The notes under the pieces were generated by a model, which did no database searches, was not told the DNA's origin, and worked only from the letters and a program-made list of their open reading frames with translations. Source: Undibacterium paludis (GTDB lineage: Bacteria > Pseudomonadota > Gammaproteobacteria > Burkholderiales > Burkholderiaceae_D). Taken from it: 64,000 nucleotides of DNA. Positions within the stretch are counted from its first letter, which is position 1. Each line of letters opens with the position of its first letter. The translations under genes and the position numbers were made by a program. Shown piece by piece: positions 37,302-43,981 of the stretch. Location of the stretch: NCBI RefSeq assembly GCF_022568815.1, contig NZ_JAKZHX010000008.1, forward strand, positions 186,001-250,000, read 5' to 3'.

Positions 37302-37459
37302 AAACGGCGCTTAAAAAGACGCTGGATGCCAGATCAGGTCCGGCCTGATGGTTTGGGCGTTGCAGGCTTCAACCAGTGAATTTGCACACGCTGGCTTTCA
37401 AGACAGATCACCAACCGTACTGATGGATTGCTGCTCCGGTCCATCAGACCACATCTGCA

Positions 37460-37684: not shown

Positions 37685-38067
37685 TGTTCCTCGATAACCA
37701 GGGCGGTCCGATTGCCGCCTTGTTGGTCATGAAGAACTGGGCTGAATGTTTTTTCATGGCGTTTGTTCCAGAGGGTTGTCGTGACTATTAAATTTTTTGG
37801 GGAGGTTTGCCTGATCTTTGCGGGATTTTGCGTAAGACTTGCCGCGGCGAGCACGATGTTTCCATGCTTCATGCTATTTCATTCTCCGACTGTGGTGCTT
37901 GGAATAATATTAATGGAATCAATTAATTTTTTAAATATTATTTGTTTTAATAATGAAAATATAAATTAAATTCTTATTTAATAGATATGAAAAAAATACA
38001 TTGATTTAAGCCATAAATGGGCTTTATGATAATTTAAGAAAAGAAATTTAACAATTTCGGAGATGCA
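37685..38067. promoter_or_regulatory. AT-rich upstream region of the graspetide operon
   Basis: About 380 bp. From ~37910 to 38060 the sequence is strongly AT-rich, clearly unlike the ~54% GC flanks, and should carry the operon promoter. A small inverted repeat AAGCC-ATAAATG-GGCTT lies at about 38009-38025. No short peptide gene with a ribosome site is present. A 63-codon minus-strand frame (37681-37872) is not convincing. Confidence 0.5.
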
Positions 38068-39351
38068 ATGCCGCTTGCGGGTTCAGATAATGTACAACCG
38101 GTTCGCCCCTTATTTCGCCCTGAAGCAGGTGGAGGTAAAGGCCAATCCTGGCTTGGTGAAGTTGTTTTTCTGCGCCCCCTGTCTTTCATTGTCTACGCTG
38201 TCTTTTCACTATGTGTCATCACGGCATTGGTCAGCTTTGCATTTTTAGGCAGCTATACAAGGCGCTCCGTGGTTACTGGCGCTGTCTTGCCATCTGGGGG
38301 CTTGCTGAAAATATATTCTCCGCGCCCCGCACGTGTGCTGGAGCGTAAAGTTACCGAAGGGCAGTATGTGCAAGCCGGACAGATTTTGTTCACGCTGAGC
38401 GATGATTTTACCCTGGCAAAAGAAGGCGAGCCTGGTCGTGAAGCCGTTATGCTGCAAAACCTGGCGGGCAAACGCGCTAACCTCCAGGCTGAGCGCAACT
38501 CTCAGATCACGCAGAACCTGCAATTACGTGAAAAATTGCAGCGGCAAATCGAGGGAATACAAGCCGAACTACTGCAAATCGATCGCGAGATAGCGACGCA
38601 ATCGGAACGCCTTGAGTCTGCCAGGGAAAATTTTCAAAGACAGCAAAACCTGGCAGCGCAAGGGTTTTTAGCTGCCACGGCATTGCAGCAAAAAAAGGAC
38701 GAGAGTCTTGAGCAGCAAGCACGTTTGCAGGCAGTGCAAAGAACCCGCCTGAACCTGCAACGTGAAAAATCAGAACGAGAGGCAGAACTGGTCGGTGCTG
38801 TGACCGTTGCCACCCGTGAACAGCAGCAGCTTGACCGCCAGTCACTTGAGCTTGAACAAACTGAGTTACAGAACCAGGCAAAGTTTTCTATTACTGCCTC
38901 ACAAGCCGGTACGGTGGGCGCCATTCTGGCTGAGCCCGGACAAAGTGTCAGTCAGTCGGCGCTCGCCACGCTCATTCCGTCGAATGCACCACTGGAAGCC
39001 CAGGCTTTCGTTCCTGCAAATTCTGCTGGCTTCTTAAAACCTGGTTTGCCTGTGCGCCTCCGTTACAACGCTTATCCTTACCAGAAATTTGGGCAATATC
39101 TGGGCCATGTCGCCGAGGTTGCCAAAACGCCGCTTGCACCATCTGAATTGCCGGCGGTGCTGGCTAGTGACAGAGGTAATCAAGTACTTTACCGCGTACG
39201 TATTGCACTTGACCAGCAAAGCGTACAAGTCTACGGAAAAAATGAGTTATTAAGTCCGGGCACCTTGTTTGAAGCAGACATCCTGCAAGAGACACGTACT
39301 ATCTGGGAATGGGTGCTGGAACCTTTGTTCAGCTTGAAAGGGCAACTGTGA
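38068..39351 (+). CDS. HlyD-family adaptor of a peptide exporter
   Basis: 427 aa; GGAG 6-7 nt before the ATG. One membrane segment (~37-60) is followed by a lipoyl-like barrel (IYSPRPARVLERKVTEGQYVQAGQ, ~88), a long coiled coil (~128-255, Gln/Glu/Leu-rich) and a second barrel half (ASQAGTVGAILAEPGQSVSQ, ~273). This is the membrane-fusion protein of type I export, which links an inner-membrane ABC exporter to an outer-membrane TolC channel; no tolC gene is in the cluster, so a housekeeping one must serve. Its stop overlaps the GTG start of the ABC exporter gene. Confidence 0.92.
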   Translation: MPLAGSDNVQPVRPLFRPEAGGGKGQSWLGEVVFLRPLSFIVYAVFSLCVITALVSFAFLGSYTRRSVVTGAVLPSGGLLKIYSPRPARVLERKVTEGQYVQAGQILFTLSDDFTLAKEGEPGREAVMLQNLAGKRANLQAERNSQITQNLQLREKLQRQIEGIQAELLQIDREIATQSERLESARENFQRQQNLAAQGFLAATALQQKKDESLEQQARLQAVQRTRLNLQREKSEREAELVGAVTVATREQQQLDRQSLELEQTELQNQAKFSITASQAGTVGAILAEPGQSVSQSALATLIPSNAPLEAQAFVPANSAGFLKPGLPVRLRYNAYPYQKFGQYLGHVAEVAKTPLAPSELPAVLASDRGNQVLYRVRIALDQQSVQVYGKNELLSPGTLFEADILQETRTIWEWVLEPLFSLKGQL

Positions 39352-41528
39352 TATTTGATGCTCTGAATATGGGCTGGCGTAACCGCGTACCTTTGATTTT
39401 GCAAAGTGAAGCAGCAGAATGTGGGCTGGCATGCCTGGCGATGCTGGCCGGGTATCACGGTTACGAGACAAATCTCTTGGCACTGCGCCAACGCTTTTCA
39501 CTGAGCCTGCGAGGTGCAAATTTAAAGCACCTGATCGACATTGCTCAAAAACTCAATTTTTCCACTCGTGCAATTCGCATCGAATTGGAAGATCTGGCTT
39601 ATCTGCCGACGCCTGCTATTTTGCACTGGAACATGAACCACTTCGTTGTGCTGGTGAGTGTCAATACCAGCGCAGACGGCAGTTTGAAGCACATCGTAAT
39701 TCATGATCCCGGGAGCGGGGAATGCACCTGCAATGCGGCAGAAGTTGCGCAACGCTTCACAGGGATTGCACTGGAAATAGCGCCTGCCGCCGGTTTTGAA
39801 GCCAGGCAGGAAAAGCAAGCATTGTCTATTACGCACCTGCTTGGTCATATCAGGGGGTTGAGCGGTGCTGTTGTGCAGATCGTAGCTCTTGCACTTGGTC
39901 TGGAGCTACTGGCGCTGGCCGCGCCTTTTTATATGCAACTCGTGGTTGACTCTGCCTTACTGTCAGCAGACCGGCAGTTACTCACCTTGCTGGCCCTTGG
40001 TTTTGGTTTGCTCTTAGTGATACAAACTACGCTCTCCCTGATGCGTAGCTGGATGTTGCTGGTATTGTCCACGCATATGAATTTACAGTGGCTGGCAAAC
40101 ATTTTTCATCACTTGATACGCTTGCCTCTGGCTTTTTTTGAGAAGCGCCATCTGGGTGATGTCATGTCACGTTTCAATAGCGTACAAGCGATTCAGCGTA
40201 CGTTGACGACCAGTTTCATCGAAGCCATGCTTGATGGCATCTTGGCGTTGTCTACCCTGACGATGATGTTTATCTATAGTCCAGGCCTGAGTGCACTTGT
40301 GCTGGCATTTGCTGTTTTATATGCGGTATTGAGATTTGCTTTTTATAGCCCGCTGCGACGCGCGAACGAAGAGAGCCTGAACATGGCTGCACGTGAGCAA
40401 ACCATGATGATGGAATCACTGCGCGCCATCCAGTCAATAAAACTTTTTGCGCATGAAAACCAGCGCCAGCAGCGGTGGTATAACGCCCTGGCTTCGACCA
40501 CCAATCGCCAGGTGCGTTTTCAAAAAATAGGCCTGGGTTTCAGTTTTGGACGCCAGCTGTTGAATGGACTGGAGAATGTCTTAGTGATCTGGCTAGGTGC
40601 AAAATTGGCTATGAATAATGTTTTTTCTGTAGGCATGTTATTCGCCTTTATCAGCTACAAAACCACCTTTTCAACCAGGATATTTGCTTTGGTTGATAAA
40701 TGGATGGAGCTCAAGATGGTGGGGCTGCAAGCCGAGCGTTTGGCTGACATCGTCTTGACTGCGCCAGATACCTGTCATAGTGAAAATGAGCGTCTGTCTT
40801 TACACCAGGCCTCGCCAGAAAGCCTTGCGCTGAGCGTTAGAAATCTTGGTTTTCGTTATGCTGATGGCGAGCCCTGGATCATCAAAAATTGCAGCTTCGA
40901 TATCCAGTCAGGAGAGTCGCTTGCGTTGATTGGCGCTTCTGGTTGCGGCAAGACTACATTAGTCAAACTCATGCTTGGCCTGCTTACCCCTACCGAAGGC
41001 GAAATATACATCAACGGCCAGCCTTTAAGCCAGTTTGGCATGCAGGCATATCGCTCTCACATTGCGGCAGTCATGCAAGACGATCAATTATTGTCCGGGT
41101 CAATACTTGATAACCTGAGCTTCTTTGACCAAAAACCAGATATGGAGCGTGTCAGTCGTTGCGCCCAGATGGCTGCTATCTCCAGTGATATTGAAAACAT
41201 GCCCATGGCTTGGCAAACCTTGATTGGTGACATGGGATCTTCTCTTTCTGGCGGTCAAAAGCAAAGACTTTTGCTGGCCCGCGCTTTATATCGACAACCA
41301 AAATTGCTTTTCCTGGACGAAGCCACGAGTCACCTTGATGTTACACGTGAAGCTGAAGTTAATCAGGCAGTTTCCCAGTTGGCGATCACTCGCGTCATTG
41401 TTGCGCACAGACCTGAAACGATCAAAAGTGCTGACAGGGTAATAGAAATGGCCAAGGGTGAAATTGTCAGGGACTTGCGCAGGACTCCCGCAGGAGAAGA
41501 CCTGGATAAAGAAAAAAACGTGCAGTAA
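39348..41528 (+). CDS. Bacteriocin/RiPP ABC exporter with N-terminal C39 peptidase (PCAT)
   Basis: 726 aa from GTG 39348, which overlaps the hlyD stop (GTGA) and has AAAGGG 5 nt upstream; an ATG at 39369 is the alternative. Residues ~15-150 form a C39 protease: Gln19 and Cys25 (SEAAECGLACL), His98 (HWNMNHFVVL) and Asp120 (IHDPGSG), so the catalytic set is complete. Then six membrane segments (~165-440) and an ATPase with Walker A GASGCGKTT (~528), signature LSGGQKQR (~632), Walker B LLFLDEAT (~653) and the H-loop AHRPE. Such proteins cut leader peptides after Gly-Gly and export the core. The 56-aa peptide encoded 80 bp downstream has exactly that site. Confidence 0.95.
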   Translation: MIFDALNMGWRNRVPLILQSEAAECGLACLAMLAGYHGYETNLLALRQRFSLSLRGANLKHLIDIAQKLNFSTRAIRIELEDLAYLPTPAILHWNMNHFVVLVSVNTSADGSLKHIVIHDPGSGECTCNAAEVAQRFTGIALEIAPAAGFEARQEKQALSITHLLGHIRGLSGAVVQIVALALGLELLALAAPFYMQLVVDSALLSADRQLLTLLALGFGLLLVIQTTLSLMRSWMLLVLSTHMNLQWLANIFHHLIRLPLAFFEKRHLGDVMSRFNSVQAIQRTLTTSFIEAMLDGILALSTLTMMFIYSPGLSALVLAFAVLYAVLRFAFYSPLRRANEESLNMAAREQTMMMESLRAIQSIKLFAHENQRQQRWYNALASTTNRQVRFQKIGLGFSFGRQLLNGLENVLVIWLGAKLAMNNVFSVGMLFAFISYKTTFSTRIFALVDKWMELKMVGLQAERLADIVLTAPDTCHSENERLSLHQASPESLALSVRNLGFRYADGEPWIIKNCSFDIQSGESLALIGASGCGKTTLVKLMLGLLTPTEGEIYINGQPLSQFGMQAYRSHIAAVMQDDQLLSGSILDNLSFFDQKPDMERVSRCAQMAAISSDIENMPMAWQTLIGDMGSSLSGGQKQRLLLARALYRQPKLLFLDEATSHLDVTREAEVNQAVSQLAITRVIVAHRPETIKSADRVIEMAKGEIVRDLRRTPAGEDLDKEKNVQ

Positions 41529-41608
41529 AGATCGCTTTTTTTGCATGGCGTGCCGACCAGCCATGTAGAAATTTTTCTTGGTCGGAGCATCATTTAGGAG
41601 ATACAAAC

Positions 41609-41779
41609 GTGAGTAACGAAACTAAAGTACGTGTTTTGGGAAGACTGTTGGGACAAGAAATTTCTCCAAAAGAAACAGAAGACGTTTCTGGTGGCTGGAT
41701 ACCTACGAGCTATTTTCAAACAGGTTACTCTACTGGCGAAAGCAGTACGGATGTTGATGAAAGTGATTCAAGAGGTTAA
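41609..41779 (+). CDS. Graspetide-like RiPP precursor peptide with double-glycine leader
   Basis: 56 aa, GTG start with AGGAG 8 nt upstream. Leader 1-29 is charged and ends ISPKETEDVSGG; Gly28-Gly29 is a standard C39 cleavage site. The core, 30-56, begins WIPTSYFQTGYSTGE and continues with an acidic, hydroxyl-rich tail, STDVDESD, then SRG. It has 10 Ser/Thr and 6 Asp/Glu but no Cys and no Lys. That excludes lanthionine or disulfide bacteriocins and leaves side-chain esters between Thr/Ser and Glu/Asp as the expected chemistry of the ATP-grasp enzyme next door. It lacks the microviridin TxKxPSD core and PFFARFLE leader motifs. Function as protease inhibitor or other bioactive peptide is inference. 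Confidence 0.85.
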   Translation: MSNETKVRVLGRLLGQEISPKETEDVSGGWIPTSYFQTGYSTGESSTDVDESDSRG

Positions 41780-41791
41780 GTTTTCCTAAGT

Positions 41792-41823
41792 GATATGGGG
41801 ACTGCATTCGTAGTTCCCATATC
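41792..41823 (+). promoter_or_regulatory. Intercistronic hairpin between precursor and ligase genes
   Basis: GATATGGGGACT pairs with AGTTCCCATATC (12 bp, one G-U) around an 8-nt loop, starting 13 bp after the precursor stop. No T-run follows. It could protect the precursor mRNA end or reduce read-through, giving more peptide than enzyme. Confidence 0.65.
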
Positions 41824-41860
41824 CCCGTTAGTGCGCTATCTACAAAATCCCTGACTTGAA

Positions 41861-42967
41861 ATGACAATTTTAATTCTTTCAAAAGAAGATGATCTTCATG
41901 TTTCTGCTGTTGAATGGGGCTTGAAGCAATTTGGTTGTGATACTTACATTTGGAATTGGCATAACTTTCCTCATGGCGATACTTGTAAATGGAATCTCAA
42001 TGTGAATTCATTTTCTTTACAGGATATATGGGTCAATGATCGCAATCTGGGGAGCAATATCACTGCTGTCTGGAATCGTCGCTTTGGCGTACCAACACCT
42101 ACGGCGAATAGTCATGAAGATGACTATGAATTGATTAAAAAAGAATCGGTCTCATTTTTGAGAAACATGCTTAGATTGATTGGCGATAGTGAGACAAGAT
42201 GGGTTAATCCCCTGGTCCCTTCGATGGAGGCGGATCATAAGATCAGGCAATTAGTATTTGCCAAGCAGGCGGGCTTTGATGTACCAGATACCTATATAGG
42301 TAATGACCCTGCTGAATTATTGAATTTCTACAATAAACATCACAAAAAAATCATATTCAAAGCGTTTAACCCAGGCGGCTGGTATAAAAATGATGGCCCT
42401 ACGACTGTACTGAAAACTGCCCGCGTTTTAGAAGAGCACATTCATCATGCTGAAGCCATACGTGCATGCCCGGCCATATACCAACCCTTGATAGAAAAAG
42501 AATATGAAATCCGGGTCACGGTCATCGGCAATCGGGTCCTGGCGGGGAAAATTTCAGCAGATAATACTTGCGTTGATTGGCGTTATGATTCGCCGCAGGC
42601 ATGTAGAAACGTGACTTTTTTTGAACTCCCAGCACATATTGCTGATAAGTGCATTTCCCTGAGCAGAAGCATGGGACTGGAATTTGGTTGCATTGATTTG
42701 ATTTATTCAAAGACAGGGAATATCATTTTTCTGGAGATCAATGAGGCAGGGCAGTTTATGTGGAAAGAATTGGCTGATCCAAAATTGAATGTGCTTGATG
42801 CGTTTTGCAGATTACTAGCTGCATCGGAATTCTCTGATACTGAATTGCAAACCAAGCCTGTGATTTCGCTGCAAAATTATTTTAAGACTGACGAGTATAA
42901 AACTACATTGGGCAACATCATCAATGCCAGTGGCACAAAGCCATCCAATATTTACGAAGAGGCCTGA
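41861..42967 (+). CDS. ATP-grasp peptide ligase, MvdC/MvdD (graspetide synthetase) type
   Basis: 368 aa. ATP-grasp features in order: ADHKIRQLVFAKQAGFDVPDT (~124-144, start of the ATP-grasp core), IIFKAF with Lys167, EYEIRVTVIG (~214-223), VDWR (~238-241), FGCIDLIYSKTG (~275, metal Asp279) and LEINEAGQFMW (~291-301) with metal ligands Glu292 and Asn294. The ExRVTVxG...VDWR...IDL...FLEIN set is characteristic of graspetide synthetases, which activate Asp/Glu side chains with ATP and join them to Thr/Ser/Lys side chains. The ribosome site is weak (only TTGAA near the ATG), unlike the precursor. Its stop is immediately followed by the next ATG. Confidence 0.9.
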   Translation: MTILILSKEDDLHVSAVEWGLKQFGCDTYIWNWHNFPHGDTCKWNLNVNSFSLQDIWVNDRNLGSNITAVWNRRFGVPTPTANSHEDDYELIKKESVSFLRNMLRLIGDSETRWVNPLVPSMEADHKIRQLVFAKQAGFDVPDTYIGNDPAELLNFYNKHHKKIIFKAFNPGGWYKNDGPTTVLKTARVLEEHIHHAEAIRACPAIYQPLIEKEYEIRVTVIGNRVLAGKISADNTCVDWRYDSPQACRNVTFFELPAHIADKCISLSRSMGLEFGCIDLIYSKTGNIIFLEINEAGQFMWKELADPKLNVLDAFCRLLAASEFSDTELQTKPVISLQNYFKTDEYKTTLGNIINASGTKPSNIYEEA

Positions 42968-43603
42968 ATGAGATTCACAGCTTGCCTATTGTTTCTTTTT
43001 TATATGCCCCTTTGTATTGCGCAAGAGCCTTGTTCCCCCGCCAAATTGAATGCAGACCTTGAACAGGTGCTGGAGCTTGACCAAGGCTTGCGCAGGACCC
43101 ATCAGTTCGCTGTCTATGACCAGAAATTTTCGCCCAGTGCAGAGCATCAGGCGGCAGTGGACAAGGCTCTGTCGGATATGCGCGTTGCGGACCAGAACAA
43201 CCACGCCATTGTAGAAGGTATTTTCAATACCTGTGGCGCACCTGATGCCAGGTTATTGAGCTATAAAGCTAATACAGCCTTGTTTCTGACCATACAGCAT
43301 GGCAGTAAGGCTGATCGCATCACCTATTTCCCCTACTTTGAAAAACAATACCAAGACAACCAACTACATAGTTTTCGCTATGTGATGATGGTTGATCGCA
43401 TGCGCTTTGACCAGGGAAAGGGGCAGCTATATGGCACGCAATTTTTCCCCAATAAAGAAGGTGTGGATGCCTACGGTAATGTGGAAGAACCCGAAAAAAT
43501 CAATGAACGACGCGAAAAAATGGGCATGACACGCCTGCTGGTATTTGATGAGGTGTATCCCCCAAAAACAGAACAGGGTAAATCCATGGAGAAATCCAGG
43601 TAG
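42968..43603 (+). CDS. Secreted DUF6624-like protein in the graspetide operon
   Basis: 211 aa. Signal peptide ~1-18 (LCIA-QEPC). The DUF6624 landmarks are visible: LFLTIQHGSKADRITYFPYFEKQ (~99), MMVDRMRFDQGKGQLYGTQFF (~139) and a late INERREKMGMTRLLVFDEV. The gene starts directly after the ligase stop with GAGG overlapping the ligase end, so it is translationally coupled. DUF6624 has no established activity to my knowledge. In this context it could be an immunity protein, a periplasmic target, or a final processing factor; none of these can be chosen from sequence. Confidence 0.8.
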   Translation: MRFTACLLFLFYMPLCIAQEPCSPAKLNADLEQVLELDQGLRRTHQFAVYDQKFSPSAEHQAAVDKALSDMRVADQNNHAIVEGIFNTCGAPDARLLSYKANTALFLTIQHGSKADRITYFPYFEKQYQDNQLHSFRYVMMVDRMRFDQGKGQLYGTQFFPNKEGVDAYGNVEEPEKINERREKMGMTRLLVFDEVYPPKTEQGKSMEKSR

Positions 43604-43876: not shown

Positions 43877-43981
43877 GATGCCGGATCAAGCCCGGCGTGA
43901 CGTGGTTGGGACTTGTAGTCGTCAATGCATGGCTGCACACGTATCAATGCCCAAAAAATACTGTTTCTGTGAATTAAAAAC

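Follow-up and report, generated by a model that had tools for sequence, protein, structure and literature searches.

Positions 38068-42967 of the window, the 64,000-nucleotide stretch of Undibacterium paludis DNA analysed here, very probably hold a four-gene graspetide module that occupies a variable slot in the chromosome and would make, trim and export a ring-closed peptide. The module is a fresh example of a type of system that has already been described and partly tested elsewhere. It is compact, linked to C39 and open to testing, and it comes from a bacterium of Janthinobacterium's family; its core is short and free of Lys, and the ring pattern of the product would be new data. Further, its leader, of the RVL(A/G)x...GG and not the PFFARFL type, links many proteobacterial clusters, and comparison of the same place in four genomes of the genus cautions against calling the adjoining DUF6624 gene biosynthetic from co-occurrence alone.

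Layout of the locus

The sequence-only reading described five same-strand genes, separated by overlaps or short gaps, as one operon. All five open reading frames were recovered in place, as a single run on the plus strand:

38068..39351, + strand: HlyD-type membrane-fusion adaptor, 427 aa (Pfam HlyD_3, 2.3e-16)
39309..41528, + strand: Peptidase C39/ABC exporter, 739 aa as called (Pfam; Q32, C38, H111, D133)
41609..41779, + strand: precursor peptide, 56 aa (leader profile, GG motif)
41693..41695, + strand: second Gly codon of the GG, with the C39 cut predicted right after it (sequence and leader alignment)
41861..42967, + strand: ATP-grasp ligase of the graspetide-synthetase family, 368 aa (NCBIfam MvdC, PDB matches, alignment, tree)
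42968..43603, + strand: DUF6624 protein, 211 aa, a doubtful member of the module (Pfam 4.1e-5, below the cut-off)

As called, the HlyD and C39-ABC frames overlap by 43 bases; an alternative ATG for the exporter at 39369 would replace the overlap with a gap of 17 bases. The precursor starts with GTG, has the ribosome-binding-like sequence AGGAGA upstream, and is flanked by gaps of 80 bases before and 81 bases after it, while the ligase stop codon abuts the start codon of the DUF6624 gene. Precursor and ligase have a G+C content of 0.41, DUF6624 one of 0.47 and the exporter genes 0.49-0.52; the corresponding values are 0.605-0.631 in four genes on the left side and 0.509-0.605 in five on the right. 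A search of plasmids with the operon returned 29 records, all of them short and at 60-80% identity, and nearly all of the matches listed are annotated as peptidase-domain ABC transporters. An Rfam scan gave zero matches.

Promoter-like sites at the module (7 found, 9.1 expected from shuffles) and terminator-like sites (8 found, 7.5 expected) are no commoner than in shuffled sequence, which would fit a module that is silent or starting to decay, its frames intact and unexpressed. We hold this to be improbable, as all the frames of the module are open, the conserved residues are kept and the precursor is preceded by the ribosome-binding-like sequence.

Ligase, precursor and exporter

Among NCBIfam models, the ligase scored best with MvdC (162 bits, 1.9e-47), SAV_5884 (155 bits) and MvdD (145 bits), and reached 51 bits with RimK; all of these models stay under their curated cut-offs, those of the MvdC and MvdD equivalogs, at 425 and 475 bits, being missed by far. 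A profile of the window ligase and four relatives matched six PDB entries at E <= 0.001, namely 5ig9, 7m4s (AMdnB), 5ig8, 7mgv (CdnC), 9bou and 7drm. The window ligase alone finds the same six, the next match being a DNA-binding domain at E 0.054. We take 5ig8 to be MdnB and 7drm to be PsnB; in the search output, 7drm and 9bou carry only ATP-grasp or MvdD-like protein names. Entry 5ig9 is given as MdnC in PMC7823629. By these scores and matches, the enzyme can be regarded as a homologue of the graspetide synthetases, as the sequence-only reading had proposed.

In an alignment of 38 ligases (the window's and 37 relatives), the invariant columns include D11, W71, R73, R74, K127, K167, E216, R218, D239, R241, D279, E292 and N294, so that the motif W71-x-R73-R74 is invariant throughout. 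Mutation of K165 or D280 is described as abolishing the activity of AMdnC (PMC5934393); these residues presumably correspond to K167 and D279 of the window ligase, the positions having been mapped through an alignment with MdnC.

The nearest ligases are those of Janthinobacterium sp. CG3 (locus L033, 42% identity), Massilia solisilvae (L035, 38%) and Pseudoduganella guangdongensis (L034, 38%). In a maximum-likelihood tree of 100 rows, five of them PDB segments, the window ligase pairs with that of Janthinobacterium CG3 (support 100/83), and the two join M. solisilvae and P. guangdongensis in a set of four (100/99, starred), the supports coming from a careful run and the set memberships being read from a quick tree. 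Neither the PDB rows of microviridin type nor a second Oxalobacteraceae ligase type belongs to this clade, and in the quick tree the window ligase does not fall inside the 45-row Legionella clade. The tree program flags long branches, that of the window (1.41) included; L020, L104, L105 and L106 were left out beforehand, as were rows under 250 aa. A position outside the graspetide synthetases, named beforehand as evidence against the sequence-only reading, was not seen in this tree, which is unrooted and has no RimK outgroup. Separately, the ligase copies at L167 and L105 carry stops or apparent frameshifts, reflecting either decay or draft errors.

The ATP-grasp superfamily also includes enzymes that modify peptides otherwise, for example by adding amino acids to an end as RimK or PGM1-type ligases do. 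Such an activity would be compatible with scores below the curated graspetide cut-offs and with the 25-31% identity between the window enzyme and the Legionella-named ligases that were found. We nevertheless consider it very unlikely here, given that the PDB matches are of graspetide type as far as they are identified, that RimK scores far below the 145-162 bits of the maturase models, and that donors precede acceptors in the core of the neighbouring peptide.

This peptide, the 56-residue double-glycine precursor of the sequence-only reading, has the leader MSNETKVRVLGRLLGQEISPKETEDVSGG and the core WIPTSYFQTGYSTGESSTDVDESDSRG. A profile derived from the leaders of 57 Legionella-clade precursors ranked it first among 2,978 open reading frames from the window and seven other loci, with 20.6 bits (E 4.8e-5) against 5.8 bits for the next-best frame; the profile omits the window's row, but its columns derive from an alignment that included the window. 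When the leader was shuffled with the first Met and the GG fixed, 0 of 2,000 shuffles reached the real score (best 8.2 bits, real 23.1 bits). By eye, the common leader reads approximately R(V/I)L(A/G)xxLAxE(I/L)SxEELxxVSGG. The microviridin core TxKxPSD and leader PFFARFL are both absent from the window precursor on inspection, which bears out an earlier remark that the microviridin signature is missing; the VLGRLL of the leader resembles FFARFL by eye only. It has been reported that Glu191, Asp192 and Asn195 of MdnC contact Arg17 of MdnA (PMC7823629), and these contact sites were mapped onto the ligases; by eye, they showed no clean shift between R- and Y-type leaders, and covariation between leader and ligase was set aside.

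The 27-residue core contains 10 Ser/Thr, 5 Asp/Glu and zero Lys. Cores vary widely across the related precursors. In known graspetides, donors are described as standing before acceptors (PMC7823629), and this order holds for more than 0.5 of the donor-acceptor pairs in 78 of 81 precursors, with a mean of 0.81 as against 0.55 in the leaders. Individually, 30 of the 81 fall below p 0.05; the fraction of 0.76 in the window core is not significant on its own (shuffle p 0.067). A putative precursor with both the leader and a donor-before-acceptor core thus neighbours the ligase, as would be expected of a graspetide cluster. The window core also looks like the Legionella core pattern T...[ST]G...D...D by eye. 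A Legionella core profile gave it 4.3 bits, and because 239 of 5,000 shuffles of the core itself scored higher (~5%), the likeness is only marginal and an identity of the two core types was left unproven.

The exporter contains the Pfam domains Peptidase_C39 (5.3e-33), ABC_membrane (1.3e-39) and ABC_tran (1.8e-34). Its C39 domain carries Q32, C38, H111 and D133, the residues of the catalytic set, and the Cys/His/Asp set noticed in the sequence-only reading is accordingly present as C38, H111 and D133. The nearest solved C39 domain is 6mpz (E 4.8e-17), the double-glycine protease domain of an AMS/PCAT transporter. The top NCBIfam model is TIGR03796, an NHLM equivalog, with 474 bits, which misses the curated cut-off of 853.3 bits. 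With its full residue set, the exporter appears to be paired with a GG-leader substrate.

Homology searching yielded 74 related loci, of which 54 have C39, 48 HlyD, 61 a precursor and 50 both precursor and C39; precursor and C39 counts mean a match anywhere within the locus sequence, and many loci are contig ends. That double-glycine precursors travel with the ligase, a point raised by the sequence-only reading, is borne out at these 61 loci, a count that is partly circular because the calling profile (E < 0.01) was seeded with 19 related-locus leaders and the window's. No C39 gene was found in 20 of the 74 loci and no profile-detected precursor in 13. When only the 38 loci of 15.5 kb or longer are counted, C39 is present in 30 and a precursor likewise in 30, leaving 8 without the one and 8 without the other. 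At L169, a nearer Burkholderiales relative, precursor and ligase are present and C39 was not found within its 16 kb.

The ligase is sparsely distributed in the genomes sampled. In the family sample, a match at E <= 1e-20 occurs in 19 of 294 genomes including the window's own; close ligases are confined to G212 (44%) and G155 (38%), the others reaching at most 34%. Across the order, 5 of the 399 sampled genomes, again with the window's counted, match the four-row ligase profile at the strict threshold of E <= 1e-40. Within the genus, the window's genome and G259 are the 2 of 43 with a match at E <= 1e-10, and the G259 ligase is of a different type with a stop inside the matched stretch. A literature search for graspetides together with Oxalobacteraceae names did not return the word graspetide among the matches listed, and one for graspetides together with DUF6624 led to a single paper.

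Two further arrangements were observed in this family. Pseudoduganella guangdongensis has a ligase-HlyD-C39 cluster in which a precursor was not detected (L024/L034), and a separate contig of its genome carries a precursor-ligase pair with no exporter nearby (L026/L079); the two loci may complement each other. The second Oxalobacteraceae ligase type is found at L027-L032, where the nearby ABC transporter matches stop short of the C39 domain.

The DUF6624 gene and the variable slot

The last of the five genes encodes a protein whose N-terminus looks, by eye, like a signal peptide and which scores 23.6 bits with the Pfam DUF6624 model, below the gathering score of 27 bits. Kinship with the family is likely despite the missed cut-off, because H111, D143, R144 and Q153 are invariant in an alignment of eight sequences. 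The abutting stop and start codons suggest that this gene might belong to a five-gene operon, as the sequence-only reading had it. DUF6624 would then be a biosynthetic, partner or immunity component, and the related strains G241 and G310 would later have lost the other four genes. The wider distribution of the family lends this some substance: graspetide groups 18, 20, 23 and 42 are stated to contain DUF6624 with high frequency (PMC13097080), and by family profile DUF6624-like genes lie near the ligase in 7 of the 74 loci. One stands behind the ligase at L043 (2.8e-29), L094 (1.2e-9) and, weakly, L070 (7.2e-4), and others are near it at L099, L041, L104 and L106, the last two being nearly identical and carrying the gene on the other strand. 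Such genes beside graspetide ligases occur in Caulobacter, Legionella and other bacteria. The coordinates within the loci are:

L043:9132-10091: DUF6624-like gene
L094:9306-10046: DUF6624-like gene
L041:6591-7670: DUF6624-like gene
L099:7003-7998: DUF6624-like gene
L104:2115-3080: DUF6624-like gene
L106:460-1425: DUF6624-like gene

These are distant relatives, since a blastp-like search with the window protein alone finds 0 of the 74 loci. Further, the close ligase relatives L033-L035 have no DUF6624 gene within the 17 kb examined.

Instead, the closest DUF6624 relatives found (66, 65, 60 and 58% identity) are in four genomes of the same genus without such a ligase, and in two of these the gene occupies the corresponding position. 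Positions 33.6-37.2 kb and 43.05-50.0 kb of the window are collinear with G241 at 71-86% nucleotide identity. Between these flanks lies a variable slot (37759-43046 in the window), with a conserved small gene on one side and a cupin-like gene on the other; the corresponding sister loci are L137, L161, L162 and L163. In G241 and G310 it contains, with names assigned by sequence inspection, the small conserved gene, a gamma-lyase-like gene, a GntR-like regulator, a DUF6624 orthologue (64.5 and 63.5% identity, respectively) and the cupin-like gene, while G296 and G282 have the lyase and the regulator without DUF6624. Six other genomes of the genus have the left marker; the four with the right marker on the same contig were compared, and G187 and G306 were left out. 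The graspetide genes are absent from this place in all four, and in G241 and G310 such a ligase was not found anywhere in the genome. Close DUF6624 genes (E <= 1e-40) are present in 5 of 43 genomes of the genus, the window's included.

Because G241 and G310 have the DUF6624 gene at this place without the module, and without such a ligase anywhere, the five-gene unit is unsupported and we consider it unlikely. Nor did any of the four sister slots show convincing remnants of HlyD, C39 or ligase, the strongest tblastn hit having E 0.22. A candidate module remnant before DUF6624 in G241 and G310 was likewise unconvincing, the best nucleotide match being 16 bases at E 0.041. DUF6624 was thus most likely already resident here when the module inserted next to it. 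The simplest reading of the compared slots is that the four-gene module replaced the lyase-regulator genes next to it.

The slot that follows the ligase is usually taken, in Legionella-clade loci, by a HEAT-like protein whose start is signal-like (e.g. L051:8987-10168 and L045:6659-7702). Altogether, 39 slot proteins match one profile of this HEAT-like family, one of them from Pseudoduganella (L079); all five Legionella-clade slot proteins that were scanned hit Pfam HEAT_2, three above the cut-off. Homology between these proteins and DUF6624 was considered and none was seen (hhalign probability 0.5%). A short, dispersed palindromic intergenic repeat flanks the slot on both sides (37315-37357 and 43878-43901) and has similar copies in the sister genomes; its core occurs in 4 copies with at most one mismatch in the source genome, one of them within the window.

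Proposed product and comparison with known systems

In the four-gene module, the ATP-grasp ligase would bind the precursor leader and phosphorylate the side chains of Asp/Glu residues close to the core's C-terminus, and Thr/Ser side chains would then attack the activated residues to close macrolactone rings. With no Lys in the core, the links would be esters only, and the five Asp/Glu would set a maximum of five. By analogy with Gra-7 and rosaritide, described below, a product with three ester links is most likely. The C39 domain would then cut after Gly-Gly, and the ABC/HlyD pair, together with an outer-membrane factor encoded elsewhere, would export the 27-residue core.

Tentatively, the window, Janthinobacterium CG3, M. 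solisilvae and P. guangdongensis could form a graspetide group of their own, unnumbered so far, whose C39 leaders are of the RVLGR type; the window's product would be a Lys-free, ester-only, multi-ring peptide, and the resident DUF6624 gene would be a newly captured accessory directly behind the ligase. If so, strains of the genus would provide a natural plus/minus comparison for the DUF6624 family. The ligases of these nearest relatives form one clade with the window's and are accompanied by C39 and HlyD. The leaders of L033, which has two precursors, and of L035 resemble the window's, whereas the cores differ; L034 differs in that a precursor was not detected, and all three loci lack DUF6624 over the stretch examined.

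With the microviridins (MdnA/B/C), the window module shares the ligase family and the donor-first logic of the core. It differs from them in lacking both the microviridin core and leader motifs and in not reaching the equivalog scores.

Gra-7 of Legionella pneumophila, assigned to group 8, pairs two precursors with a single ATP-grasp enzyme, and both precursors are reported to undergo three dehydrations each in E. coli (Ren et al. 2022, PMC9576775). According to the same report, those of precursor A were localised to the core with LahT150, the digestion of precursor B failed, and the rings are unmapped (PMC9576775). The loci of other Legionella species have the leader family of the window, whereas the window ligase lies outside the Legionella clade and the core match to Legionella is marginal. 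Because the compared loci come from other Legionella species, the link between the window and Gra-7 is by genus only.

The source of rosaritide, M. rosaria, is an actinobacterium. Its cluster, of group 21, is described as consisting of MirA, MirB (TIGR04187), the PPIase MirC and the PCAT MirD (TIGR03796), with three dehydrations installed by a synthetase that depends on the PPIase partner (PMC13097080). As described there, it resembles the window in combining a precursor with a predicted PCAT cut site, an ATP-grasp synthetase and a peptidase-containing ABC exporter. Similarly, TIGR03796 is the best NCBIfam model for the window exporter, and TIGR04187 the second-best for the window ligase. However, the window lacks a PPIase, and the likeness is one of description.

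More broadly, the C39/ABC family (433 occurrences) is reported to top the neighbours of graspetide ligases by weighted frequency, with HlyD at 191 (Makarova et al. 2022, PMC8939145), and NHLM-type transporters are described in eight graspetide groups (Carter et al. 2026, PMC13097080). Since C39 neighbours, Gra-7 and rosaritide have all been described (PMC8939145, PMC9576775, PMC13097080), the kind of system to which the window module would belong is already known.
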